Made by a program: the position numbers and the translations under genes. A stretch of 34,569 nucleotides of DNA from a virus, in the IMG/VR virus record IMGVR_UViG_3300042332_001088, positions 1-34,569 of that record; one strand, written 5' to 3'. The notes under the pieces were generated by a model. The model saw only the letters and a list, made by a program, of their open reading frames with translations, did no database searches and was not told the origin of the DNA. This document shows, in pieces, positions 823-12,168 of this stretch (positions within the stretch are counted from its first letter, which is position 1; the number at the start of each line of letters is the position of its first letter).

Positions 823-1470
823 TCAGATGTTATTTAAGAAATGATTGAATAGGTCTAATTTCTTTTCTTCTAATTGGCGGGATTGAACTAACTTGTTGAT
901 AGTCTTTTTAGTATTCTCAAGTAACCATTCTTTCTTTGTTACATCAAAGTACCATTCTTTGCCTTCCATAATTCCATTAACAAATGCAGTAGTACAGGAA
1001 GGATCGTGAACAATATCTGCGACAGTTGAGAACATTAGGTCATCGCCTACGATGTTTACTCCTTCATTGGTAGATCTTAAAGAACCAACCGCTCTTGAGG
1101 AAACACCAAAAACAACACCTTCTTCGTGGAGGTTTTTTACGATGTTTCCCATTGGGGTATTAACAATTACAGCCTTTCCTATAAAATTATTACCTTCTCT
1201 TTGGAGAGATGTAATCTTATGGGATACTCTATCATAGTTAATCGTCGGGGCCGCCGGATGATTTAATTCCCCTACGGCCCTATTTTGCTTAACAAAGTTC
1301 TCAATATAATAATTTACGGCATTATTAAGAGTCTGGATCGGATAAACTCTTCCATTTCTGTTTTTAGTTTCAGCCTGACAGAAAACTCCTTCAATATACA
1401 ATTTCTTCTTACCATTTACGCTTTCAGTAAGCATTTTCACATCTTGAGCTTCTTCGGTAATGAGTTTCAT
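823..1470 (-). CDS. 21: Prohead core protease gp21
   Basis: Serine protease of the herpesvirus-assemblin type that matures the prohead by cutting scaffold and capsid proteins, at L/I-x-E sites in T4. Evidence: KLYIEGVFCQAETKNRNGRV (23-42), the catalytic histidine in GELNHPAAP (His71), and the catalytic serine in FGVSSRAVGSL (Ser124 or Ser125, by analogy with T4 His85 and Ser140). DPSCTTAFVNGIMEG (156-170) is also typical. Length 215 against 212 in T4, so it looks complete and active. It lies before gp22, its main substrate, as in T4. The accessory cassette separates it from gp20 and the gp67-like gene, which in T4 are only a few hundred bases away. Confidence 0.96.
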   Translation of the reverse strand: MKLITEEAQDVKMLTESVNGKKKLYIEGVFCQAETKNRNGRVYPIQTLNNAVNYYIENFVKQNRAVGELNHPAAPTINYDRVSHKITSLQREGNNFIGKAVIVNTPMGNIVKNLHEEGVVFGVSSRAVGSLRSTNEGVNIVGDDLMFSTVADIVHDPSCTTAFVNGIMEGKEWYFDVTKKEWLLENTKKTINKLVQSRQLEEKKLDLFNHFLNNI

Positions 1471-1512: not shown

Positions 1513-2037
1513 TTATAGTAATCCAACAATTAAAGAAGTGTCCTGTTTTATTTTTGATAGTGCCCCTTCTGATGGAGTTAATGGTGTGGATCCACTTGTG
1601 GGGATTCCGAGGACTGTACGAATGGCTGATTTTTCTCCGGCTGTCCAATCTCCGCTTCCACCACCAGATGAATTGACGACGGTGCTTGCGGCGGATTGAA
1701 TGAGCAGAACTTGGACTCCGGGACTATACGCGATCGGGTCTCCTGCTGGTCCTCCAACGAGGTTTCCTCCGGCGACCCTGGCAATATAGTTTCCTGTTGT
1801 GAAGCGAAGTTGCCAAATCCCCAATAATTCGACGGTGAGACCGACTTGAACCCCTGGCCCGAGTTCAACGAGTCCTGTTCCTGCTGCGATTCCTTCATAG
1901 ATAATTCCCTCCTCGCTTGCTTGAGCTAATTTTATTGCAGTGTAAAGTGTTGTGCAGTCAACATCGTTGACGCCGCTATCTACGTTGATAAGCGAATTTT
2001 GAAAATCAAATGTAAACGGGGCCGAATAAAAAGGCAT
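1513..2037 (-). CDS. Small conserved virion-associated protein, last gene of the cassette
   Basis: A 174-residue protein with an N-terminal signature PFYSAPFTFDFQNSLINVDS followed by CTTLYTAIKLAQASEEGI (28-45), then GPGVQVGLTVELLGIWQLRF (60-79) and GNYIARVAGGNLVGGPAGDP (82-101). I have seen this family next to the family of the 480-residue neighbour in phage genomes, so the two may work together; the function is not known. Residues 121-132 form a Gly/Ser linker, and the C terminus with WTAGEKSAIRTVLGIP and a following helix looks like a separable short domain. The stop at 1513 is followed within about 20 bases by the late promoter box for gp21, so the cassette ends here. Confidence 0.75.
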   Translation of the reverse strand: MPFYSAPFTFDFQNSLINVDSGVNDVDCTTLYTAIKLAQASEEGIIYEGIAAGTGLVELGPGVQVGLTVELLGIWQLRFTTGNYIARVAGGNLVGGPAGDPIAYSPGVQVLLIQSAASTVVNSSGGGSGDWTAGEKSAIRTVLGIPTSGSTPLTPSEGALSKIKQDTSLIVGLL

Positions 2038-2040
2038 TTC

Positions 2041-3483
2041 TTATACATCACTATTACGGCTGGCATTGACGCTACCCCCTGCTGCCGTTACCGAGAGCAG
2101 AGTATTGAATGGAATAATCGGAGAGACACCCGTGCCATTTCTCACATCCACTCGCACGGTGAAATTTGCGGAAAAGATAAAAGTCACACTTTCACTGGTT
2201 CCAGAAGAAACCTTGTCAATATAAGGAACGAAAACATCATCTGCAGTTACAATGTTTGATGCAAGACCCGGAGATAAGCCAGAGAATGTCTTGGTTCCAG
2301 CATTAAACGAAGTGTAAGTGTAACGTAGATTTTTAATGCGAATTACTCCGGAAGATGGAGTGTCAGTCTTAATTGATTCAACTACTTGAATTGAAGTTGC
2401 ACCACTAGATGCTGCTACAGGAGTATATTCATCCTTGAGGATACCCCCCGAGCCATTTTCTCTTGCGGCTAACACTCGGTCTCCGGCTACAAGATTCCCT
2501 AATGTGATTGCGCTTATAGTAGGTGGAACTTGACTGGTTCCGTCATGTGCTATTAGCTGATATTTTGTAGCTTCTGCTGGCAATACACCTGTTAACCACC
2601 AACCTTGAGCAACGAAGAATGTTCCCCCTGCAAAAGTTCCAAATGGAGCAGATGGAATTTCAGTGTAAGCCGAGTTTAGAACTCTGTATCTCCAACCTGG
2701 AATACTGTTAAGTGTGGTGGTGCTATTTTCTCGCGTGATATACTGTAAATATTGATAAGCCTCTTGTAGTGTGCAAGAATTAGATAAGGCAATAGTACCC
2801 TTGTATAATTTGGAACCGTTTCCATTTCCCAAATCTTGGTTTGTATCGCCAAAAGTAACTGTGACCTTACTAGACAATAGAGCGGCGTTGACTTCTGATA
2901 ACACAATGTTAGAGTCAAGTGCTGTAGAAAGAGCGGCATTGGATTCACCGCCAGCCGCAAGGTTTACGTCAAAGTGTGAATAAGACTGGCCCCATTTTCT
3001 GGAAAAGGCTGTAACGTTACCCGAATCAATTAGAGAACCACCTGTGCGAACCTTTACTAAAATCTGAATGTGACCATTAGACCAAAATGTGGTGAGTTTA
3101 GAACCACTCTGCACAACATAAACTGGAGATGCAGCAACAATACCACCGATGGTTTTTAGGCCGGAATACTGAACTGCAGCACTCTGCTGTTTGATAGAAC
3201 CAAAGTTTATAAATTGTGCTGCAGTTTCATCAAGGTTAAATGCCACCGAACCATCGGTCAATAGGTTAAGCCTTGAGGCTACTGCTCCGTCACGAGGACC
3301 ATCCAGTTTAGATGGGTTGGGTGCTAAAATGTCTAGTAAATCGTTGCCGGATGCTGCTGCATCGTCGGCTAAATCTTGTAGCCACTCGTGTAGAGCTAGT
3401 ACCGTATAAACCTCCGTACTGGCTCCAGCCTGGCGGCGAACATCTCCAGTGGCTGAAATTGTAAAGTCTGTTGCAATAGGCAT
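2041..3483 (-). CDS. Virion-associated protein of a recurring marine phage family, unknown function
   Basis: A 480-residue protein that begins PIATDFTISATGDVRRQAGA, followed by YTVLALHEWLQDLADDAAAS (27-46) and GNDLLDILAPNPSKLDGPRD (47-66). I recognise this opening from a family in marine and metagenomic phages in which it is followed by a long beta-rich body. Here the body contains SHFDVNLAAGGESNAALST, TLQEAYQYLQYI and WRYRVLNSAYTEIP, and it ends NASRNSDV. No enzyme motif is seen. Base composition is intermediate between the GC-rich gene upstream and the AT-rich phage core. It starts 12 bases after the adhesin-like gene with a purine-rich leader and is followed after 3 bases by the 174-residue gene, so it belongs to the same cassette, perhaps as a fibre or appendage part. 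Confidence 0.75.
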   Translation of the reverse strand: MPIATDFTISATGDVRRQAGASTEVYTVLALHEWLQDLADDAAASGNDLLDILAPNPSKLDGPRDGAVASRLNLLTDGSVAFNLDETAAQFINFGSIKQQSAAVQYSGLKTIGGIVAASPVYVVQSGSKLTTFWSNGHIQILVKVRTGGSLIDSGNVTAFSRKWGQSYSHFDVNLAAGGESNAALSTALDSNIVLSEVNAALLSSKVTVTFGDTNQDLGNGNGSKLYKGTIALSNSCTLQEAYQYLQYITRENSTTTLNSIPGWRYRVLNSAYTEIPSAPFGTFAGGTFFVAQGWWLTGVLPAEATKYQLIAHDGTSQVPPTISAITLGNLVAGDRVLAARENGSGGILKDEYTPVAASSGATSIQVVESIKTDTPSSGVIRIKNLRYTYTSFNAGTKTFSGLSPGLASNIVTADDVFVPYIDKVSSGTSESVTFIFSANFTVRVDVRNGTGVSPIIPFNTLLSVTAAGGSVNASRNSDV

Positions 3484-3495
3484 AGCGGTTCTCTT

Positions 3496-6400
3496 TTACT
3501 GATCGGATTCTTGTAGGGCGACAACGTTTATCGTTGCAGTTGGAGAAATGGATACTTGGGTTATCCAAGGCTTATATGCAGGAATACTGCTCGCATTTCT
3601 GGCCTCAATTTTTACAGACCCGGTGTATTGAAAATCAAAGTTTAGGGTCGTGCCATCACCACAAGATGCCTGTTGTAACAGGCCGCCAGTATCTGCTCGT
3701 GTTACTTTTACCCGAGTTTGTGGTATAAGATTAGTTATGTTAACTAAAGATCCTGGTAGAGGATGTTGAATTTGTTGGGATGTTGCATCGGTTTGAATAG
3801 ACATAGACAGAGCAGTTAACAAGGTTGTTGTTGCCGCTGCGGTTGGGTAGGTGCGGACTTGCAAAGCATACCCATCGGCTGCGCTGACAGCCACGTTGAC
3901 AGGCGAGAAGGTCACAAACTCGCTTGACGTAAGGTTGGCCGTGAAGTTGTTCGAGCAGGTGATGACATCGCCCGCGATATTGGTGACGGTCGTGTTTGCG
4001 GGCAGTCGGAAAGAACCCGTCTGCACGAAATCGCCAACCTGCGGCTGGCGTGTCAGGGCGGTTCGTTCCGCTGTCGTGACCGTGACCGTGTTGGTTCCGC
4101 TTGTCCCGCCGCCTGACCGGCGCACGGTGTTTGCCAAGAAAGCCCACGAGCCGCCGAAGCCTGGCCCTGTGTCGATCTTGTATTCAAAGATCAGGTTTTG
4201 GCAGTCGGTCCCCGACACTGCACAGCCACCAGCAAAGGCGGTATGTCCATACATTTTGAGCGGCGTCGTCCAGTTCACCACGTCAGTCAGACGCGAGATA
4301 ATCATGGAGCCTGAGCCGTTGAACCCGGAGCCTGCGCCTAGCGTGACATTGCACTGCGCTGCCGAAGCCCCTGTCGGCTCGTTTGCCATGATGGTAATTC
4401 GGCCTGTGGTGGTCGAATTGTAAGCATCGTCCCAATGCGACCCTTGATTGCCGGACAGGCCGGTGCGCTGATTTGTCCACCGCCCGCCGCGAGTAATCAC
4501 GTTTGACGAGGCTATCGTTTGCAGCGTCGTGCCATCGCCCCATACGTCAAAAGCTGTAACGACCGGCCCCGCAGGCGATAGCGCCATAACACTTGAGCGA
4601 AGGTTTGTGACGTAGCAGCGGCGAAGTTCAAACGTGGTCCCTGCGTTGCTTCCTAGCAAAGCGATGGTCCCAGTCGGATTAACCGTGCCCGCGTTTAGCG
4701 GTGCAGTAGGAGACCCGATGTTGTGGATCGTAAGGTTAGAAGTAAAGCCGTTCTGGTTGACATATTCAGCAAAGGGGTGGTTATTGTCTATTCCAGCCAA
4801 TGCCGAAATGCCATCAATCAGAATGTTCGACCCCTGCACAGCGACAGCACGCGAAGCCACCGCTGGCGTGGTGCCGGTCATATTGTCGCAGTACGTGAGG
4901 TTTCGGACACTGTAGTTCTGCACGTTAATGGTGGCCGAGCCGCCGATCACGGTGCAATCAACAAACTCCCCGCCAGACGACACGATGCTAACCGCGCTAG
5001 GGTTTGAACCGAATGCGGCGTTTCGCTGTGTCCTGCCCTGTAACTGCCGAATGTTCTCGAATCTACTTCTGTAAGCGTTGACATTAGCCGAAGCCGTGGC
5101 TTGGAAAGCAATGCCCGACGCCCTTACAATACGACTATCGTAAATGAAAGCGTTCGCGCTGTTTTGAACCAACACCGCGCCACCAGCATTTGCGTATAGA
5201 ATTGGTGCAATACAGGAGTTGCGAATCTCACTGCTGAAATTGAGTACGTTGAAAGTATTAGCCCAAGCCGCATTTTTAACGACAAACGAGATAGGGGTTA
5301 CGTTTGTCAGAAACCAACCCCATGTGGCGGTGTCCAAGTCAAACACACCGCCCGAAATGTTCATGGTGTACCGCTGCGAAACAAAAGAAAGGTGTTGAGC
5401 GGCATAATCTGCCGCCGTTGAAGTCCCAAGGATTACGTTCGGGATGTGGATTTTCAGGCCAGAAGCAGGCTTGAAGCCTGCATTATTCGCGCCGCGCTTG
5501 GCGAGTTGAATGGTCCCTGCAAACGGATCGGAGTAGAAGAACTTGCCGCGCACATCGGTCGGGACGAAGGCGTGGCTGTTTTGAACGACAGTCCAAAACC
5601 CGACATAGACGCCCTCCGAAGTGCTGCCAGCATAGGTCGGCAAGCCGTTCGCATAAGTCGGAGTAGCGGAATTGGAAGGGGCAACGAAAGATTGCATGTT
5701 GGTGTTGGTGATGTGATCGAGCGTCACGTCAACCTGATACCAGCCGCCGCCGAGCGAAGTGATGGAAGATGCGGTTCCGGTCGGGCTTCCCACGGTCGGG
5801 GTCGCGATGATCGTACCAGCCGCCAGATCAACCAACGCCCCGAACCGTGTGGCACCGCTATTGGTGGAAAGCTGCACCACGCACCATTGGCGCGTTTCCT
5901 GCTTGACGATTGCCCGGTGCGTGTAAGACCCCGCGTCCATTTGGGCGGCTTGCAGGTTTTGGCCGTTGAACGAGTGAACCCCGTTCGCCGTAGTCTCGCG
6001 CACCCGCTCTGCCGCTGGATAATTCGCGGGACCGGCGATAGTATTTCGCGTGAAGGTCGCGTTTGTAAATGTGGCCGCGTCTGTGTTTGGATACCAGCCA
6101 TTCCACGCATCAGCCGCGTTCACCCACCATTCATAGATTCCAGACCCCGGCGCAGTCTCAATCTGCACTGCCGGAAATTCATCCCGCACAGGCATCTGGA
6201 TTGTTTGGTTGTCAGTGCCGTCAGTAGTGCCAATCTCGTACCAGTCCCCTCGAGTAGTGACGTTTGCCATGCGGGGTGTGGTCATGGTGGAGCCTGAGTT
6301 TCCCACCACATGAATCCAGCTACGCTTGCCCGCATTGGCAGCAACAATCGTGGCACCCCCCGGCAGTGTAATGGTCTCACCCGCTTGGAAATTCCCGGCC

Positions 6401-6792
6401 TTGGACCGCAGCTTGATGAAGCCCGCCATAGGCATGGCAGCGCCCGCTACAGCCGGGGTGAACGATCCGCTGGCCCATACACGGGTCAACTCGCCTGTCG
6501 CGCCGCTGGTGCCTCCTGTGACCGTGTTGGACCCAAGGGCAGCCTGAGTGGGAACCAGTCCTATCGCCATAGAAAACGGCACTTCCCAAACTTTGGTGCC
6601 ATCTATTGCTACCACACCCCCGAGCGTTGAAGAAACTGTGATGTTTCCAAAAACCGCCGCCTGTTGGTTAAACCGAGTATCGGCATCAATCGTCATTGAC
6701 CCACCGTTAATGTTGATAGTTTCTCCGTCGAGTAGTCCCGAGATTGAATCGCTGTCGTAATTAACTGTGGTTGTGACAGTTTGGTTGGCCAT
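3496..6792 (-). CDS. Large tail-fibre or adhesin-like protein, GC-rich
   Basis: A 1098-residue protein. Residues 1-75 are a beta region with LLDGETININGGSMTIDADT. Residues 130-150 hold NFQAGETITLPGGATIV. Residues about 240-410 look like a carbohydrate-binding-module-type beta sandwich: FTRNTI, then SYTHRAIVKQETRQWCVVQL, GGGWYQVDVTLDHI and EGVYVGFWTVV, a pattern I associate with sugar-binding domains in phage and proteobacterial proteins. About 450-760 is a repetitive stretch with NANVNAYRSRF-like and FVDCTVIGGSATINVQNYSV segments, consistent with a beta helix like those of pectate-lyase-fold tailspikes. The C terminus (about 980-1098) returns to lower GC. No catalytic residues can be assigned. 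It is probably the host-recognition or receptor-binding component; enzymatic activity is possible but unproven. It follows the YD-repeat gene by one base. Confidence 0.75.
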   Translation of the reverse strand: MANQTVTTTVNYDSDSISGLLDGETININGGSMTIDADTRFNQQAAVFGNITVSSTLGGVVAIDGTKVWEVPFSMAIGLVPTQAALGSNTVTGGTSGATGELTRVWASGSFTPAVAGAAMPMAGFIKLRSKAGNFQAGETITLPGGATIVAANAGKRSWIHVVGNSGSTMTTPRMANVTTRGDWYEIGTTDGTDNQTIQMPVRDEFPAVQIETAPGSGIYEWWVNAADAWNGWYPNTDAATFTNATFTRNTIAGPANYPAAERVRETTANGVHSFNGQNLQAAQMDAGSYTHRAIVKQETRQWCVVQLSTNSGATRFGALVDLAAGTIIATPTVGSPTGTASSITSLGGGWYQVDVTLDHITNTNMQSFVAPSNSATPTYANGLPTYAGSTSEGVYVGFWTVVQNSHAFVPTDVRGKFFYSDPFAGTIQLAKRGANNAGFKPASGLKIHIPNVILGTSTAADYAAQHLSFVSQRYTMNISGGVFDLDTATWGWFLTNVTPISFVVKNAAWANTFNVLNFSSEIRNSCIAPILYANAGGAVLVQNSANAFIYDSRIVRASGIAFQATASANVNAYRSRFENIRQLQGRTQRNAAFGSNPSAVSIVSSGGEFVDCTVIGGSATINVQNYSVRNLTYCDNMTGTTPAVASRAVAVQGSNILIDGISALAGIDNNHPFAEYVNQNGFTSNLTIHNIGSPTAPLNAGTVNPTGTIALLGSNAGTTFELRRCYVTNLRSSVMALSPAGPVVTAFDVWGDGTTLQTIASSNVITRGGRWTNQRTGLSGNQGSHWDDAYNSTTTGRITIMANEPTGASAAQCNVTLGAGSGFNGSGSMIISRLTDVVNWTTPLKMYGHTAFAGGCAVSGTDCQNLIFEYKIDTGPGFGGSWAFLANTVRRSGGGTSGTNTVTVTTAERTALTRQPQVGDFVQTGSFRLPANTTVTNIAGDVITCSNNFTANLTSSEFVTFSPVNVAVSAADGYALQVRTYPTAAATTTLLTALSMSIQTDATSQQIQHPLPGSLVNITNLIPQTRVKVTRADTGGLLQQASCGDGTTLNFDFQYTGSVKIEARNASSIPAYKPWITQVSISPTATINVVALQESDQ
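3840..6560. other. GC-rich, probably transferred segment
   Basis: Covers most of the 1098-residue gene. Base use changes from the AT-rich background of the window to clearly GC-rich DNA, with G/C in most third codon positions and long chance open frames on the opposite strand (5446-6297, 3851-4423). The first about 75 codons and last about 110 codons are closer to the rest of the window. The limits are by eye. Confidence 0.7.
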
Positions 6793-6793
6793 T

Positions 6794-7648
6794 TTATAGT
6801 ATCACCTCTGATATATTAACGAGTCTTTCTTGGACATCATAAGTAAAAATCTTTCGCAGAGTTTGGGTTCCGCTTACGTGGTTGGATTGGGTAAGTTTAC
6901 CACCCACATCGTAAGTTAAAGTTTTTATGCTTCCATTGGAATATGTTAAAGATTCTACTCTCCCTTGTGTATCATAAACTATTGTTGGGGACTTTCCTAT
7001 AAATGGGTTGGTCTGGGATGTAATACCGGTTAATTCTGAACCGTCTCCCACAAATTTTGTGGCGGTTACAATTCCGGCATTCACGTTATTTATATTGAGA
7101 TTGCCTAAAACTGCTACATTCCCTTTGAATTCAGTATTAGTTCCGGCAAAGCTAACGACAGTAACACCAGAGGATGATAAAATATTATTGCCGCCTATTC
7201 TTATCTTTCCGCTAAATGATGTGATTCCTGTAATGGAACCATTACCAATATAAAAGGAAGTTGGACTGTAAATTAGGTGATCTGGACTAATTTGAATGCT
7301 ACTTCCAATTGATAAATTTTCAATTGATGGATTATAGGTTAAACCATAATTTGTATAAACTGTTTCCTTAGCTGCTGGACTATTATCCGAATCAACTAAA
7401 GTTAGATAGAGTGATGCATTGGAATTATTACTTTGCGTGTAGATAGTGTATGCACTATCTGACATAGGGTCTTGAATGGTACTAACGAATATATCTTCTT
7501 CTGAATTATCAAAAGTTAGTTGTAGAGCAGCATCAATAGTATTACTTTCTGTGTGAATATTGTAAACGCTATTTTCAGAAGGATCCCGAACTATGCTTAC
7601 AGATCTAGAGCTATTTGGTTCAAAACGTACTCTATAACCTTCAATCAT
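6794..7648 (-). CDS. Fibre-like protein with internal duplication and C-terminal YD repeats
   Basis: A 284-residue protein. Residues 17-91 are a diverged tandem duplication (see separate entry). Residues 92-210 are beta-rich and contain GIVTATKFVGDGSELTGI (192-209), a turn motif I know from marine phage tail fibres. Residues 222-284 hold three YD-type units (VYDTQGRVESLTYSNGS, LTYDVGGKLTQ, FTYDVQERLVNIS) like those of RHS and other surface proteins. The gene starts in an ATGA with the upstream gene and ends one base before the ATG of the 1098-residue protein. It probably forms part of a fibre or its base together with the neighbours; the exact role is unknown. Confidence 0.75.
   Translation of the reverse strand: MIEGYRVRFEPNSSRSVSIVRDPSENSVYNIHTESNTIDAALQLTFDNSEEDIFVSTIQDPMSDSAYTIYTQSNNSNASLYLTLVDSDNSPAAKETVYTNYGLTYNPSIENLSIGSSIQISPDHLIYSPTSFYIGNGSITGITSFSGKIRIGGNNILSSSGVTVVSFAGTNTEFKGNVAVLGNLNINNVNAGIVTATKFVGDGSELTGITSQTNPFIGKSPTIVYDTQGRVESLTYSNGSIKTLTYDVGGKLTQSNHVSGTQTLRKIFTYDVQERLVNISEVIL
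7376..7600 (-). repeat. Diverged tandem duplication inside the YD-repeat protein gene
   Basis: Codes for residues 17-53 and 55-91. The copies share V-S-x-x-x-D-P-x-S-x-S-x-Y-x-I-x-T-x-S-N followed by L-x-L-T (SIVRDPSENSVYNIHTESN against STIQDPMSDSAYTIYTQSN). Similarity is also visible at the DNA level, so this is an old in-frame duplication. Confidence 0.75.
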
Positions 7649-7977
7649 ACCGATGAAGTATCCTCTACCATGATTGTGCCCTTAACGGGCTTAATTGTCT
7701 CAAATTGATTAGTAAGAAGTATATCAAAGTAGTTTCTACCGGTGGATAAAAGTTTTGTGGTTTCTTTATTCATACTAATAGTAACACGTCCGGTTCCGCC
7801 TAAAACCTCAGCAACGAAAGAATTGAATTTGACAGAAGCTGGATATTTTCTTATTTTGGCTGTTGCGACATAACCGTTTATTGGTAGCGGTTGTCCATCA
7901 AAAGAGTCAATCAAAAAAGATACAGAAAAATCTGTACCCTTTTCAATAGTAATTCCGGTTATTTCTTGTGTTGCCAT
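7645..7977 (-). CDS. Small beta-sandwich virion protein, unknown function
   Basis: A 110-residue protein with EITGITIEKGTDFSVSFLID, YVATAKIRKYP (36-46) and TGRVTISMNKETTKLLSTGR, ending in a strand with VKGTIMVED. The pattern (an opening strand, then KGTDF, then a G-Y-x-A-x-x-K-I-R-K turn) recurs in small genes beside phage fibre genes and recalls N-terminal adaptor domains that attach fibres to baseplates or capsids. That comparison is from memory. The stop overlaps the start of the next gene as ATGA, which suggests that the two products are made together. Confidence 0.7.
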   Translation of the reverse strand: MATQEITGITIEKGTDFSVSFLIDSFDGQPLPINGYVATAKIRKYPASVKFNSFVAEVLGGTGRVTISMNKETTKLLSTGRNYFDILLTNQFETIKPVKGTIMVEDTSSV

Positions 7978-7983
7978 TGTTTA

Positions 7984-8250
7984 TCAGTTAGTAAACCCAA
8001 CTTTATTGACCTTAATCGCTGAACTTGTAAAAATGACTTCCGTAGGCAGTTTTTGTAAAAATTCTACGCTATAACGGGGAATAGTAAAAGAATTTGAAGT
8101 GCTCGCTCCGACCGATGTTGAAATGCTGACTATAATTTCACCGCCGGTATCGTTGCAAATTCTAACACAGGTTGCCGAATTGAGACTTGTTGCAGTTCCG
8201 GTTGTAGTTGGAGTTGAAACCTGGGTTTCAATTAGCTTTGTAATTTGCAT
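7984..8250 (-). CDS. Small beta-rich virion protein, unknown function
   Basis: An 88-residue protein predicted from sequence to be all beta: CVRICNDTGGEIIVSISTS, SFTIPRYSVEFLQKLPTEVI and AIKVNKVGFTN. This pattern (nucleotide-free, no charge clusters, VEFLxKLPTDVI-type segment) resembles small structural proteins of marine T4-like phages that I cannot name. It is the first gene after an exact late promoter and is followed after 6 bases by the 110-residue gene. Possible roles are a decoration protein or a fibre collar; neither can be shown here. Confidence 0.7.
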   Translation of the reverse strand: MQITKLIETQVSTPTTTGTATSLNSATCVRICNDTGGEIIVSISTSVGASTSNSFTIPRYSVEFLQKLPTEVIFTSSAIKVNKVGFTN

Positions 8251-8273
8251 TATTATAAATCATTCTTATGTAT

Positions 8274-8281
8274 TATTTATA
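8274..8281 (-). promoter_or_regulatory. Late promoter box before the 88-residue gene
   Basis: Minus-strand TATAAATA, exact T4 late consensus, 24 bases upstream of the ATG at 8250. It is the only box seen within the accessory cassette, so it probably drives the six genes from 8250 down to 1513. Confidence 0.7.
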
Positions 8282-8284
8282 AAT

Positions 8285-9514
8285 TCATCTACTGATCTCT
8301 TCCCAATCCACCGAACCATGTATATTAGAGTTACCTAAACTTGCGGCAGCCGCTAAAGTTAATTCAAACGGTTTATTGTTCAATCCGTCTCTTTCTAGCT
8401 GAAACTTAAATAAAGCCTCTTTTAAAATATCTACAACTGTATTAGATTGATTTGAGGCACTGAGATACCCAGATGCTAAAACATGTCCTCCTGTCATACT
8501 TTCACCATTAATTTTATATTCAATTGAAGAGTTTATTCCTGAATCAATCCAAGTTCCACCACTTGTTGATCCTTTGGAAACGACTTTCCAATTGTAATTA
8601 GAATTATTCGTAATACCCATAATGGATAGTGCAGTGAGAATTACTATTGCATCCATTCTATTCGGTGTTGCTTTCAGTCTAATTGAAATAATAGGATATA
8701 AAATTCCCGCGACCGGTAGATTTACTGGACTTGTGATGGGCGTGCCAATGGTTTGTTGTAATCCTCTTAATTCATAACCACCCTCAGAAATTACGGTTGA
8801 ACAAACTTGTTTCAATGTACTGGAACTGGTTGTAATTCCAGTATTAGTAATTTCATACCTTAAGGGTAAGCTAGCGGTTGTTATGTAAGTTGTTTGGATT
8901 TTATTTGCATGGTGAAAGGAATGTGCATGGATATATTTACCGTCTATTACAAATCCGGCTCTGACTGTTCCTTCCCCCAACCATTGAATATCGGTCCAGA
9001 AAATTTGAGCCTTAGAAATATCCAATTTAATTCCAGATGGATTAGATACCCCGGCCCCCGTTAAGGTGTCAATATTCCATGAAGACTGTGGAACTCTTGT
9101 TTCTGAGACTATTCCGGTGACATTACTTCTTTCTACGATATTTACAATATTTCCATCTTGTTCAAAATATATTCCATTATCATCTCCAAAATAACCAATT
9201 CTTTGGCGAAGATTTGGTTTTGGCGCATTCATAATTCCGGTATTTTCAATGGTTAAACCCTTACCTGGCTGATAAGAGATTACTTTAGTTGTTTCTCTTA
9301 TTATTTGGCAGGTAGAACCTGTACCAACCGTGAGATCAACCAGCCCCTGGTATTGATTAAATGAAAAAGTGCTACCTGCACCAACAACTATCGTTGACCA
9401 TAAATCATTATCCCTATAACGGTGACTTGAATCAAATAAGGTTAAAGGGTTTGAAACCTTTAGCCTTCCAAATGCATCATATAAATTTTTACTTGGTTCA
9501 TATAAATGAGACAT
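8285..9514 (-). CDS. Virion protein with N-terminal DAFGRLKVS motif, unknown function
   Basis: A 409-residue protein. An upstream in-frame TTG at 9529 would add five residues, but the ATG at 9514 forms a TAATG with the preceding stop and has a GGAG ribosome site at good spacing, so it is chosen. The opening (residues from M1) has LYDAFGRLKVSNPLTLFDSS and a HRYRDNDLW segment, a signature I have seen in structural proteins of many large tailed phages with no assigned role. Conserved-looking stretches include QRIGYFGDDNGIYFEQDG, KAQIFWTDIQWLGEGTVRAG and GKYIHAHSFHHANK. No catalytic motif, signal peptide or membrane segment is seen. A capsid decoration or fibre role is possible from the context, but unproven. 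Confidence 0.75.
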   Translation of the reverse strand: MSHLYEPSKNLYDAFGRLKVSNPLTLFDSSHRYRDNDLWSTIVVGAGSTFSFNQYQGLVDLTVGTGSTCQIIRETTKVISYQPGKGLTIENTGIMNAPKPNLRQRIGYFGDDNGIYFEQDGNIVNIVERSNVTGIVSETRVPQSSWNIDTLTGAGVSNPSGIKLDISKAQIFWTDIQWLGEGTVRAGFVIDGKYIHAHSFHHANKIQTTYITTASLPLRYEITNTGITTSSSTLKQVCSTVISEGGYELRGLQQTIGTPITSPVNLPVAGILYPIISIRLKATPNRMDAIVILTALSIMGITNNSNYNWKVVSKGSTSGGTWIDSGINSSIEYKINGESMTGGHVLASGYLSASNQSNTVVDILKEALFKFQLERDGLNNKPFELTLAAAASLGNSNIHGSVDWEEISR

Positions 9515-10278
9515 TAGATTATTCTCCAACCATTTCTATAAATTACTGTTAATGAGCCATAATCATAAGCTAAAGTTGCACTATCTTTTCCATCAATTGT
9601 ATCTGTTCCAGACGGAATTAAAACTATGTAACGGTTGGGACCATTAGAAGCCTGGCCTAATTCATCTTTGATTACATAACAAGTTCCATCCTCAGCATTA
9701 ACAGGAAGATTGATTGTTACAGAACCAGGATAGTTGACTCCAATATAATAATCGGTTTTTTGGATATTATAAACATTTGAAGTTACGCTTACGGTTGAGT
9801 ATCTAACTCCACTACTTCCTGGGTCTGCACCTTCCCACTTTTTGGTGTCGGCATTATATCTTAAAAACTTATTGCTAATCTTTACAGAATTTCTGTCTAC
9901 ATCATCTAGGAACTCTAGGCGGGTTTCGCCTCCTCCGCCAAGAGTTGAAAGTTGTTGTTGTATTCTTACTAAAAATAACTGATAATGCTTTTGAAAAGCA
10001 TCAACAGTCATAAAGGTTTGATCTAGAGGTGTTAATGGATCTTTATTTTTTACTTTGGCCGGCTCAGCAATAAGACCCAAAGAATTTTCATGTAAAGATT
10101 GGCTTTCAACTTTAGGCGCAGATTTTACAGCTTTAGCTTTTCTTTTTGGTTTAAATTCTTCACTTAAAGGTTTGACGAAAAAATCATCAAAAGAAGTAGA
10201 AATTATTTCTTCTACTTCTTGTTGTTGTATTTTCTTTTCTCTACTTACGGCCTCAAAAAATTTTTTGAGGTCTTTCAT
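9514..10278 (-). CDS. Structural protein with helical N terminus and beta C-terminal domain, unknown function
   Basis: A 254-residue protein, first of the accessory cassette. Residues 1-110 are charged and mostly helical: LKKFFEAVSREKKIQQQEVE, a Lys-rich linker at 44-57, then FMTVDAFQKHYQLFLVRIQQ at 89-108. A glycine hinge (GGGGE, 114-118) leads to LEFLDDVDRNSVKISNKFLR (121-140), a segment I know from marine phage fibre-like proteins. The C-terminal domain (160-254) is beta-rich with YYIGVNYPGSVTINLP, CYVIKDELGQ and SLTVIYRNGWRII, a module often found at the ends of phage virion proteins. The start overlaps the gp67-like stop (ATGA), so it is translated with a head-core gene although its C-terminal half looks like a surface or fibre domain. 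Function unknown. Confidence 0.75.
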   Translation of the reverse strand: MKDLKKFFEAVSREKKIQQQEVEEIISTSFDDFFVKPLSEEFKPKRKAKAVKSAPKVESQSLHENSLGLIAEPAKVKNKDPLTPLDQTFMTVDAFQKHYQLFLVRIQQQLSTLGGGGETRLEFLDDVDRNSVKISNKFLRYNADTKKWEGADPGSSGVRYSTVSVTSNVYNIQKTDYYIGVNYPGSVTINLPVNAEDGTCYVIKDELGQASNGPNRYIVLIPSGTDTIDGKDSATLAYDYGSLTVIYRNGWRII

Positions 10279-10436
10279 TCATCTTCAGAGCCGTTAAATA
10301 ATGATGCAGATACTTCGGGAACCAATTCATCAATCTTATCTAGGGCCTTTCCGGATAGAATTTGTTTAATTCTATCACTAATTTGAGCCTGTGAATCATC
10401 GGCTGCAATTAAATCAAGCAAATCTTGTTCGTCCAT
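10275..10436 (-). CDS. 67: Small prohead core protein, gp67-like
   Basis: A 53-residue acidic protein starting MDEQDLLDLIAADDSQAQIS and ending VPEVSASLFNGSEDE. It lies immediately downstream of the portal gene, where T4 has gene 67, encoding an 80-residue acidic prohead core component that is cut by the gp21 protease. The helical pattern with an aliphatic core (ISDRIKQILSGKALDKIDEL) and acidic tail fits short marine T4-like gp67 versions. The stop overlaps the next start as ATGA. The symbol rests on position, size and charge more than on sequence identity. A promoter box precedes it. Confidence 0.7.
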   Translation of the reverse strand: MDEQDLLDLIAADDSQAQISDRIKQILSGKALDKIDELVPEVSASLFNGSEDE

Positions 10437-10458
10437 TTTGTTATATAATAACTAAGTC

Positions 10459-10466
10459 TATTTAGA
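10459..10466 (-). promoter_or_regulatory. Late promoter box before the gp67-like gene
   Basis: Minus-strand TCTAAATA, 23 bases upstream of the ATG at 10436. The TAA stop of gp20 is the TAA of the box. Confidence 0.5.
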
Positions 10467-12168
10467 TTTCTCCTCCCTTGGGCATTTTTGGTTCAATGGG
10501 AACTTTACCAGATTGACCCTTTATATTATTTCCGGCCTGTGAGGCCACTACAGGGGCTTCTGGGGGGCTTACAGGGGCTTCCTGGGGTGCCATATTAGGA
10601 TCTAACGGTAAACCAGTTTCGGGATCAATCGGGGCATTTGGATCTGGAATAATTCCATCCTTTATCTCCTTACTAATAATCTCATCTTGCTCAATAATTT
10701 CTTCATCAGTCTGACGAAGAATTTTCCGGCGTAGATAATCTTGCGAGAAATATCTTCCAACATAAGGTTCTGCCATAGTTACCATATTGAGCCGTTCAGT
10801 AAATAGCTCAGATTCCTTAAGTTCGGCAAAGTGATTATCGTATAGGAAATCAAACTGAATGTGTTCAGCCATCTTTTTCCAATCTTCTGGTGTCACAATA
10901 TTCTTTAGTTGAAGTTGTGTACCCAAAAGATCAATAAAAAGTTGAGAAAATCTCTTGCGCAGTCTCCCCACAAATTTTGTAAATTTAACTTCATCTCTTA
11001 GAATTTCAGTTGAACGTCCCAGATTAAAACCGCTATCTCCGCCGATTCTAGTTTCGGGTACGTTTAGCGACTTATAGAGATTTCTTTTGAAATATTCCAA
11101 ATCAGTTAATTCGCCGAGATTGCTGCCCGCAGGTAAGGTATCAACTTCAGTACCTCTACCGCCTTCGCGTCTTGCAAACCAATAATCTTCCATAAGACTC
11201 ATAAACTTACGGGAAGAATCAACTTCACCCGTAATATTATTATAGTTCATCTTATTACGATACCTTAACATAACTTCACGCAGGTATTGTTCGGCCTTAG
11301 GCTTTGGCATATTGCCCACGTCAATATAGAAGATTCTCTTTTCTGTGCTTCTACTAAGACGATAAATTACAATACTATCTTCAATCATTCTGAGCTGATT
11401 GAGAATCTTAATTGCCTTATTGAGATAAGAAAGTGTGGTTCCTTTATTGCGATCAACTAAACCTGATGTGCAATATGCAATGGATTCTTTCGTGAATCTA
11501 ATTCCCTTTTCTGCTCCGGCTGACATATCTGCAGAGCCAACAGGATAGGTTTGCTTAGGATTATAAACAAAATATTCTTCCAGTTCTGGAAATGCCATTT
11601 CATTTGGATTTTGGTCTCCATATATTTTTGGAGCCATATTATCACGCTTTTGCTTTTTGGCTTGTCTTACAAAACGAATCTTCATGGAATCAACATACCT
11701 AAGGTCTTGAATTCCTTCAAGAGGTTTCTTGAAGTCAATTAGCTTATGATAATGTAACCTGCCGTCAATATACCAATTTCTAAATATTTCGTGAGACTTT
11801 TTATCAAAATCTAACATCTCAAGAATATGCTTAAACTCTCTACGAATTGAGGTTTTTATGCCGTCACTGGCACTAAGATTTGATAATTCAATTTCAACCG
11901 GAGAATCATTAGTATCTGAGACAATCGCCTCATTTACAATATCTTCAATTGCAGTATCAACCTCGTGATGAAGTGACATTTCACGATACCGCTTGATTAA
12001 GTCAAATTCGGTTCGGTAGACACCTTCAATGTCTACATAAGAACCAAAAAAGCCAGTAGTCAAATAATGATCAGAGCCGTCATCATTATTTGGTGGTACT
12101 GGCGATTGTAGATCTTTTATTAATTTCTTAGATTCATCTTCAATAGAAAACCCAAATAATTTAGCCAT
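10462..12168 (-). CDS. 20: Portal vertex protein gp20
   Basis: Dodecameric portal at the packaging vertex; it nucleates prohead assembly and holds the gp17 motor. Recognised by SLHHEVDTAIEDIVNEAIVS (66-85), by RYVDSMKIRFVRQ and the following lysine-rich stretch, by LNKAIKILNQLRMIEDSIVI (about 250-270), and by YRLSRSTEKRIFYIDVGNMP then YRNKMNYNNITGEV, all strongly conserved in T4-like portals. ETRIGGDSGFNLGRSTEILR fits the cyanophage g20 marker region. Length 568 against 524 in T4. The C terminus (about 510-568) is proline-rich and low in complexity (PNAPIDPETGLPLDPNMAPQ) and is probably a flexible tail. Its TAA stop is inside the promoter box of the next small gene. Confidence 0.97.
   Translation of the reverse strand: MAKLFGFSIEDESKKLIKDLQSPVPPNNDDGSDHYLTTGFFGSYVDIEGVYRTEFDLIKRYREMSLHHEVDTAIEDIVNEAIVSDTNDSPVEIELSNLSASDGIKTSIRREFKHILEMLDFDKKSHEIFRNWYIDGRLHYHKLIDFKKPLEGIQDLRYVDSMKIRFVRQAKKQKRDNMAPKIYGDQNPNEMAFPELEEYFVYNPKQTYPVGSADMSAGAEKGIRFTKESIAYCTSGLVDRNKGTTLSYLNKAIKILNQLRMIEDSIVIYRLSRSTEKRIFYIDVGNMPKPKAEQYLREVMLRYRNKMNYNNITGEVDSSRKFMSLMEDYWFARREGGRGTEVDTLPAGSNLGELTDLEYFKRNLYKSLNVPETRIGGDSGFNLGRSTEILRDEVKFTKFVGRLRKRFSQLFIDLLGTQLQLKNIVTPEDWKKMAEHIQFDFLYDNHFAELKESELFTERLNMVTMAEPYVGRYFSQDYLRRKILRQTDEEIIEQDEIISKEIKDGIIPDPNAPIDPETGLPLDPNMAPQEAPVSPPEAPVVASQAGNNIKGQSGKVPIEPKMPKGGEI

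Follow-up and report, generated by a model that had tools for sequence, protein, structure and literature searches.

How does one gene of a T4-like phage come to have a base composition so unlike that of the genes around it? The gene lies in the IMG/VR virus record IMGVR_UViG_3300042332_001088 (positions 1 to 34,569; this whole 34.6-kb stretch is called the window), which carries T4-type portal, sheath, tail tube, terminase, head protease, and scaffold genes; the portal, sheath, scaffold, and head protease place its backbone among the T4-like myoviruses. Its product, P0001, is a putative tailspike-type adhesin of 1098 amino acids (aa), hereafter the spike. We consider it probable (about 85%) that the body of the spike was replaced by recombination with a version from a pool common to unrelated phages, which are often GC-rich, beside a resident C terminus and resident downstream genes. 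What sequence comparison demonstrates is the tract, its borders, the separate lineages of tract and flanks, and the recurrence of the pattern in other backbones.

Base composition and borders of the spike gene

The initial annotation, made from the DNA alone, had described a GC-rich core within a putative receptor-binding protein (RBP), and this observation was confirmed. GC content per 500-base interval was 0.50 to 0.60 over positions 3751 to 6750 and 0.28 to 0.48 in the rest of the window, in agreement with the GC content of third codon positions (GC3), which was 0.60 in the spike gene compared to 0.21 to 0.37 in the remaining 22 genes, the flanking ones included. Fourfold-degenerate codons ended in G at a frequency of 0.30, compared to 0.03 to 0.15 in the others. 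The GC content of first and second codon positions was raised far less, and amino acid composition was therefore ruled out as the source of the jump, which is carried by GC3 and fourfold sites. The long opposite-strand frames that had been noted were also recovered (283, 190, 106, 94, and 93 aa, compared to at most 100 aa opposite other genes). Within the spike gene, GC3 stayed at about 0.5 to 0.75 up to codon ~985 and then dropped steeply to 0.23. The claim that both ends lie near the window average was borne out for the last ~110 codons (GC3 of about 0.29 for residues 987 to 1098) and failed for the first 60, which were intermediate (0.50).

Two overlapping scans of viral contigs returned 24 and 47 loci related to the spike, and 47 contigs (numbered with L) together with the window formed a comparison set of 48 rows. 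Outside the tract, the T4-like contigs L003 to L006 and L016 (the siblings) were mostly 88 to 100% identical to the window per 150 bp, with a few lower bins, some of them in the protease region of L003 and L006 (down to 77%); the window and L006 were less alike across that region (77 to 85%). Within 3.83 to 6.79 kb, identity to the same siblings was 50 to 91% per 150 bp. A two-rate breakpoint fit between the window and L005, counted from the start codon, placed the 5' border at +14 (range, -2 to 15) and the 3' border at +2958 (range, 2954 to 2965). The 3' breakpoint fell at +2958 or +2954 in the comparisons with L005 and L006 (window position 3834 or 3838), and the shift in identity there was complete within about 10 bases; the junction first placed at 3840 lies 6 bases from the mapped 3834. 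Against L006, the 5' breakpoint was at +131 (range, 41 to 173).

Between the window and L005, 238 of 406 fourfold sites differed in codons 1 to 985 and 2 of 61 in the C terminus, and the corresponding counts for L006 were 250/437 and 9/60. A synonymous contrast of this kind between body and C terminus is not what selection on the protein would produce. Protein sequence is conserved over the N-terminal 60 residues, yet 19 of the 30 fourfold sites there differed from L005. As for the proposal that both attachment ends were kept, it held for the C-terminal end. Relative to L005, no conserved N-terminal virion anchor was kept at the junction (5' border about +14), this end having been exchanged with the body; relative to L006, the first 14 to 58 codons may be shared. 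Compared with non-T4-like phages, the C-terminal 113 residues were 34 to 88% identical (34% for the divergent L047). No DNA motif stood out at the borders: codon identity given the same amino acid, scanned in 19 representatives of the 48 rows, ran at 0.34 to 0.59 along the gene with no peak at the two borders.

Recurrence, phylogeny, and source of the body

Two-rate fits, which assume one rate change per side, were applied to 22 chosen pairs (weak fits include the 3' sides of L010/L018, L018/L012, and L045/L044). An equivalent swap layout was seen in three further backbones. L001/L043 had flanks of 97 to 99% and a body of 63 to 67% identity in the fitted parts, with borders at +15 and +3183; L058 and L033, compared with L011, L041, and L019, had borders at +56 to +61 and +3061; and those of L053/L046 were at +26 and +3066. 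The converse pattern, in which unrelated upstream DNA gives way to similar spikes at about the start codon, was found for L008/L058, L018/L012, and L007/L038. Some same-backbone pairs carried spikes without detectable similarity, such as L019/L079 (0 aa aligned), whose flanks matched at 97% over 2463 bp upstream and 82% over 2744 bp downstream. By these comparisons the exchange is not a single event: the bodies differ among the siblings, and an equivalent exchange is seen in several other backbones.

Trees were built for 21 of the 48 rows by a quick method (LG+G4), with the C terminus plus the 480-aa protein encoded next to the spike as the anchor and residues 171 to 985 as the body. The anchor tree united the window, L005, and L006 with a support of 100, and the body tree rejected that clade (approximately unbiased test, p-AU 1.3e-5). 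The same held for L053 with L039 and L046 (anchor support 100; body p-AU 1.6e-38), and the L001 and L019 groups were rejected as clades by the body tree (p-AU 2.9e-6 and 4.6e-5). The body phylogeny thus conflicts with the backbone phylogeny, as for a horizontally exchanged modular RBP. The identities, the fourfold contrast, and the body tree all support the earlier suggestion that the body was exchanged by recombination, from a lineage pool unlike that of the C terminus.

At residues 421 to 780, the closest bodies were those of L001 (51% GC) and of L028, L030, and L032 (about 60% GC), with 64 to 75% aa identity, compared to 56 to 67% for the sibling bodies of L005 and L006. The phages carrying these nearest bodies have 51 to 61% GC. 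A uniform signal from low-GC T4-like phages along the protein was not seen; the body is nearest to bodies of GC-rich phages and the C terminus nearest to the siblings.

GC3 was correlated with backbone GC in 30 non-redundant loci, 17 near-duplicate contigs and L050 (broken frame) having been dropped from the 48 rows. The correlation was weak for body segments (r = 0.31 to 0.43, n = 24 to 26), higher for the N-terminal 60 codons (r = 0.67, n = 24), and strong for the C terminus, the 480-aa gene, and the 174-aa gene that follows it (r = 0.80, 0.88, and 0.91; n = 25, 22, and 22). The spike homologue of L050 (about 6001 to 9173) lies in a 31% GC backbone and has a disrupted reading frame (41 stops in its N-terminal frame), which may be real or an assembly error. 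In L080, L081, L082, and L106, the spikes have 862 to 872 aa, with P0001-like N- and C-terminal parts and a much diverged middle.

Partner genes, neighbors, and predicted structure

The features of the locus are collected in Table 1.

Table 1. Features of the spike locus, in window coordinates
Feature	Position	Strand	Basis or remark
Adhesin/tailspike gene P0001, 1098 aa	3496..6792	-	Open reading frame (ORF); beta-helix tailspike fold (predicted)
480-aa partner protein P0002, near-constant	2041..3483	-	Adjoins adhesin slot in many unrelated phage contigs
174-aa partner protein, near-constant	1513..2037	-	Homologue in every tabulated locus holding the 480-aa protein
Exchanged GC-rich tract (codons about 6-986) vs L005	3835..6778	-	Two-rate breakpoint fit, sliding identity, base-level alignments
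First about 14-58 codons, common to L006 (first 60 residues 95% aa, 88% nucleotide [nt] identity), replaced vs L005	6619..6792	-	Segment identities and breakpoint fit
Internal mosaic block, residues 101-170, 89% nt identity to L005 (neighbors 69-70%)	6283..6492	-	Alignments
Resident C-terminal segment, residues 987-1098, 97-99% aa identity to T4-like siblings	3496..3834	-	GC3 and identities
Right-handed beta-helix at residues about 472-835, which overlaps the stretch of highest variability (421-780)	4288..5379	-	Model and structure comparison
Beta-sandwich domain (residues 265-405) with weak structure matches to carbohydrate-binding modules	5578..6000	-	Model

The spike gene is flanked by the gene for the 480-aa protein and by an RHS-repeat-containing gene (6794 to 7648); past the 480-aa gene come the 174-aa gene and then the head protease. 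The 480-aa protein was present in 23 of the 24 records of the first scan (78 to 99% identity), and the 24th, L010, ends directly after the spike. Greedy ORF picking missed the gene in some loci (e.g., L028, L039, and L053), where tblastn revealed it; of ten loci tested in this way, L047 and L050 gave no hit. A scan with the 480-aa protein itself gave 134 relatives, of which 80 were kept; a separate comparison with 50,697 named phage records gave no match at E 0.01. In these loci, the upstream spike varies widely. Identity of the 480-aa protein was about 74% or more across phages of about 37% to over 60% GC, and between unrelated phages both partners were conserved better than the body of the spike.

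Neither partner matched a known family or a chaperone family in PHROG or Pfam, so that neither resembles a Tfa/DUF4376-type chaperone by this measure. A BLASTP comparison of the spike C terminus with the 480-aa protein, for a shared C-terminal domain, gave a weak match (E 0.18). The 480-aa protein had a poor fold model (predicted local distance difference test [pLDDT], 53.7) and no match in the PDB at E <= 0.001.

Portal families differ by backbone (phrog_213 in the window, phrog_21 in L001, phrog_1216 in L018, and phrog_156 in L035). The tail sheath of the window was found in 2 of 46 records searched (L005 and L006), many of them fragments, so absence is weak evidence. Among the matches listed, the window portal was 60 to 71% identical to Synechococcus phage/cyanophage and marine-virus portals, a likeness and not a host assignment. 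In the window (1513 to 12168), L001, L018, and L035, the cassette follows the portal gene and, where the sequence extends that far, precedes head-assembly genes, a site that is odd for a tail-tip adhesin. A broader, tentative possibility is that the 480-aa and 174-aa proteins with the spike C terminus form a universal adaptor through which phages with unrelated portals can use many tailspike bodies, whether these are homologous or not; the anchor of the spike might even lie close to the head or neck and not at the tail tip.

Directly upstream of the spike, positions 6794 to 7977 encode the RHS-repeat-containing protein (284 aa; 93 to 95% identity among siblings) and a protein weakly resembling fiber-assembly proteins of the LtfC type. 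The frame in the head-protease position has 588 aa in L016 (3222 to 4985) compared to ~215 aa in the siblings (window 823 to 1470); the extra length is possibly an inserted element such as an intein.

P0001 had no PHROG family and no Pfam family above cutoff, and no convincing sequence relative in the PDB. In the monomer model, blocks within residues 475 to 760 mostly had a pLDDT of 60 to 94, with a few lower, and confidence was low beyond residue ~770. The model contains a central right-handed parallel beta-helix (Sf6 tailspike, Z 22.9, 299 residues aligned, root mean square deviation 3.2), the best structural matches being the tailspikes of Sf6, HK620, and cyanophage Pam1 (PDB 2vbm, 4xor, and 7eea; Z 22 to 23). 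The shared beta-helix spans residues ~472 to 835 at 9 to 12% identity; no sequence-level relation to these tailspikes was found, and the likeness comes from the predicted monomer fold. Weaker Foldseek matches were to phage tail fibers and carbohydrate-binding modules. From these matches, the spike may be a glycan-binding, possibly glycan-cleaving tailspike. The C-terminal segment and the two partners may be adaptor or assembly factors.

Alternatives, mechanism, and known systems

Several observations weigh against a travelling body beside resident parts. L010/L018, one same-backbone pair of the 22, was internally mosaic, the first breakpoint falling at +776, and lacked a start-codon border. 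The L001 and L019 groups were rejected, more weakly, by the anchor tree also (p-AU 0.034 and 0.022), and by these trees the anchor moves too, though less than the body, being more resident, not immobile. No immediate donor of the body was found, the nearest bodies having only about 64 to 91% aa identity per segment, nor was a second contig with the window's own 3' junction, although close records may have been absent from the set searched. The spike model was poor overall (mean pLDDT 54.7), with the C-terminal segment poorly modeled.

The single contig and its unmatched junction would suit a metagenome assembly chimera in which a GC-rich spike was misjoined into a T4-like contig. This is very unlikely: T4-like backbone on both sides requires two false joins, the bodies of L005 and L006 recur with equal per-segment values in L004 and L003, respectively, which come from other records, and other backbones show the same pattern. 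We likewise give little credence to a spike gene that is GC-rich everywhere through a need for high GC or special codons in expression or folding. Body GC3 is about 0.5 to 0.7 in most relatives, even in several phages of 42 to 48% GC, but the homologues in L007, L035, and L038 have a body GC3 of about 0.30 to 0.41 and a GC-rich body is therefore not required; part of the GC3 trend could be due to constraint.

Direct acquisition from a bacterial, e.g., alphaproteobacterial, chromosome or prophage is similarly improbable. The body is GC-rich, and L018, a phage with 59% GC and a body about 53% identical to that of the window, has a portal nearest to Sulfitobacter phages at 42%. Against this, and compared to the 24 and 47 viral-contig loci, no relative was found among 79 candidate pattern-matching stretches from a scan of bacteria and archaea (84,980 species, one genome per species); the scan was seeded by two conserved peptides, which divergent homologues could escape. 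Of the GC-rich phage or host source first proposed, the phage pool is supported and the host is not, and the alphaproteobacterial origin is unsupported, the L018 portal being its sole hint. Least probable is vertical inheritance with fast diversifying selection and the GC shift as a side effect: although variability is highest in the body, where the beta-helix also lies, the fourfold differences from L005 (0.59 in the body, 0.03 in the C terminus) refute it, barring a difference in local mutation rate of more than tenfold, and the body trees and the abrupt 3' border also oppose it.

Under the recombinational exchange that we favor, the product would be a tailspike-type RBP in a variable slot, followed by resident parts, the last ~110 spike residues and the two downstream genes. 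Homologous or homeologous recombination during co-infection would have replaced the spike from the start codon or, judged against L006, from after the first ~14 to 58 codons, up to codon ~987, while the C-terminal segment and downstream genes would have retained local codon usage. Co-infecting phages probably recombine through the conserved spike ends (N-terminal ~60 and C-terminal ~110 residues), which have about 68 to 99% aa identity to the window in nearly all relatives; between siblings, the shared flanks may serve instead. Selection would retain joints that give a working spike and adaptor. The body may bind, perhaps cleave, a host surface glycan, the C-terminal segment and the 480-aa protein may keep swapped bodies functional by assembling or attaching the spike, and swaps would be fixed by selection for new hosts.

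Tailspikes exchanged among genera of Escherichia coli phages also have their receptor-binding part moved by recombination, leaving a mosaic gene (PMC10408124); the window differs in keeping the C-terminal segment and downstream genes, in its 5' border near the start codon, and in that no DNA motif stood out at its borders. Conserved motifs flanking the exchanged part are reported for some RBPs only and are not required. Alteromonas podo-, myo-, and siphoviruses, otherwise unrelated in genome, likewise share a host-recognition module of spike or fiber and downstream partner, there a DUF4376 fiber chaperone (PMC10579305) and here the 480-aa protein and the 174-aa protein, both better conserved than the body of the spike. 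In metaviromic islands, near-identical marine phage genomes also differ locally at a host-recognition gene (PMC3909814); those were seen by read recruitment and have a variable C terminus, whereas the window has mapped junctions, a GC3 contrast, and a constant C terminus. RBP domain shuffling is already in print (PMC10684548).

A single one of the 50,697 named phage records matched the spike, the Manatee Spring phage ctPCi537 (MW202577), a distant relative with a spike of 854 aa compared to 1098 aa (30% identity); the gene next to it encodes a remote relative of the 480-aa protein (25% over 188 aa, E 2e-7). A description of the spike/480-aa/174-aa cassette was not found in the literature searched, which covers few subscription papers.

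The swapping of host-binding proteins is a known habit of phages, known from cultured ones. We read this locus as a slot for variable tailspikes next to resident genes, a new form of known RBP mosaicism. The exchange is seen unusually cleanly here, with joints that resolve to tens of bases across several uncultured and mutually unrelated backbones, and GC3 marks what travels (the body) and what stays (the C terminus and two downstream genes). The 480-aa protein provides a handle for spike discovery in metagenomes, and allows a test of whether unrelated phages can share host-recognition parts by way of a constant adaptor.
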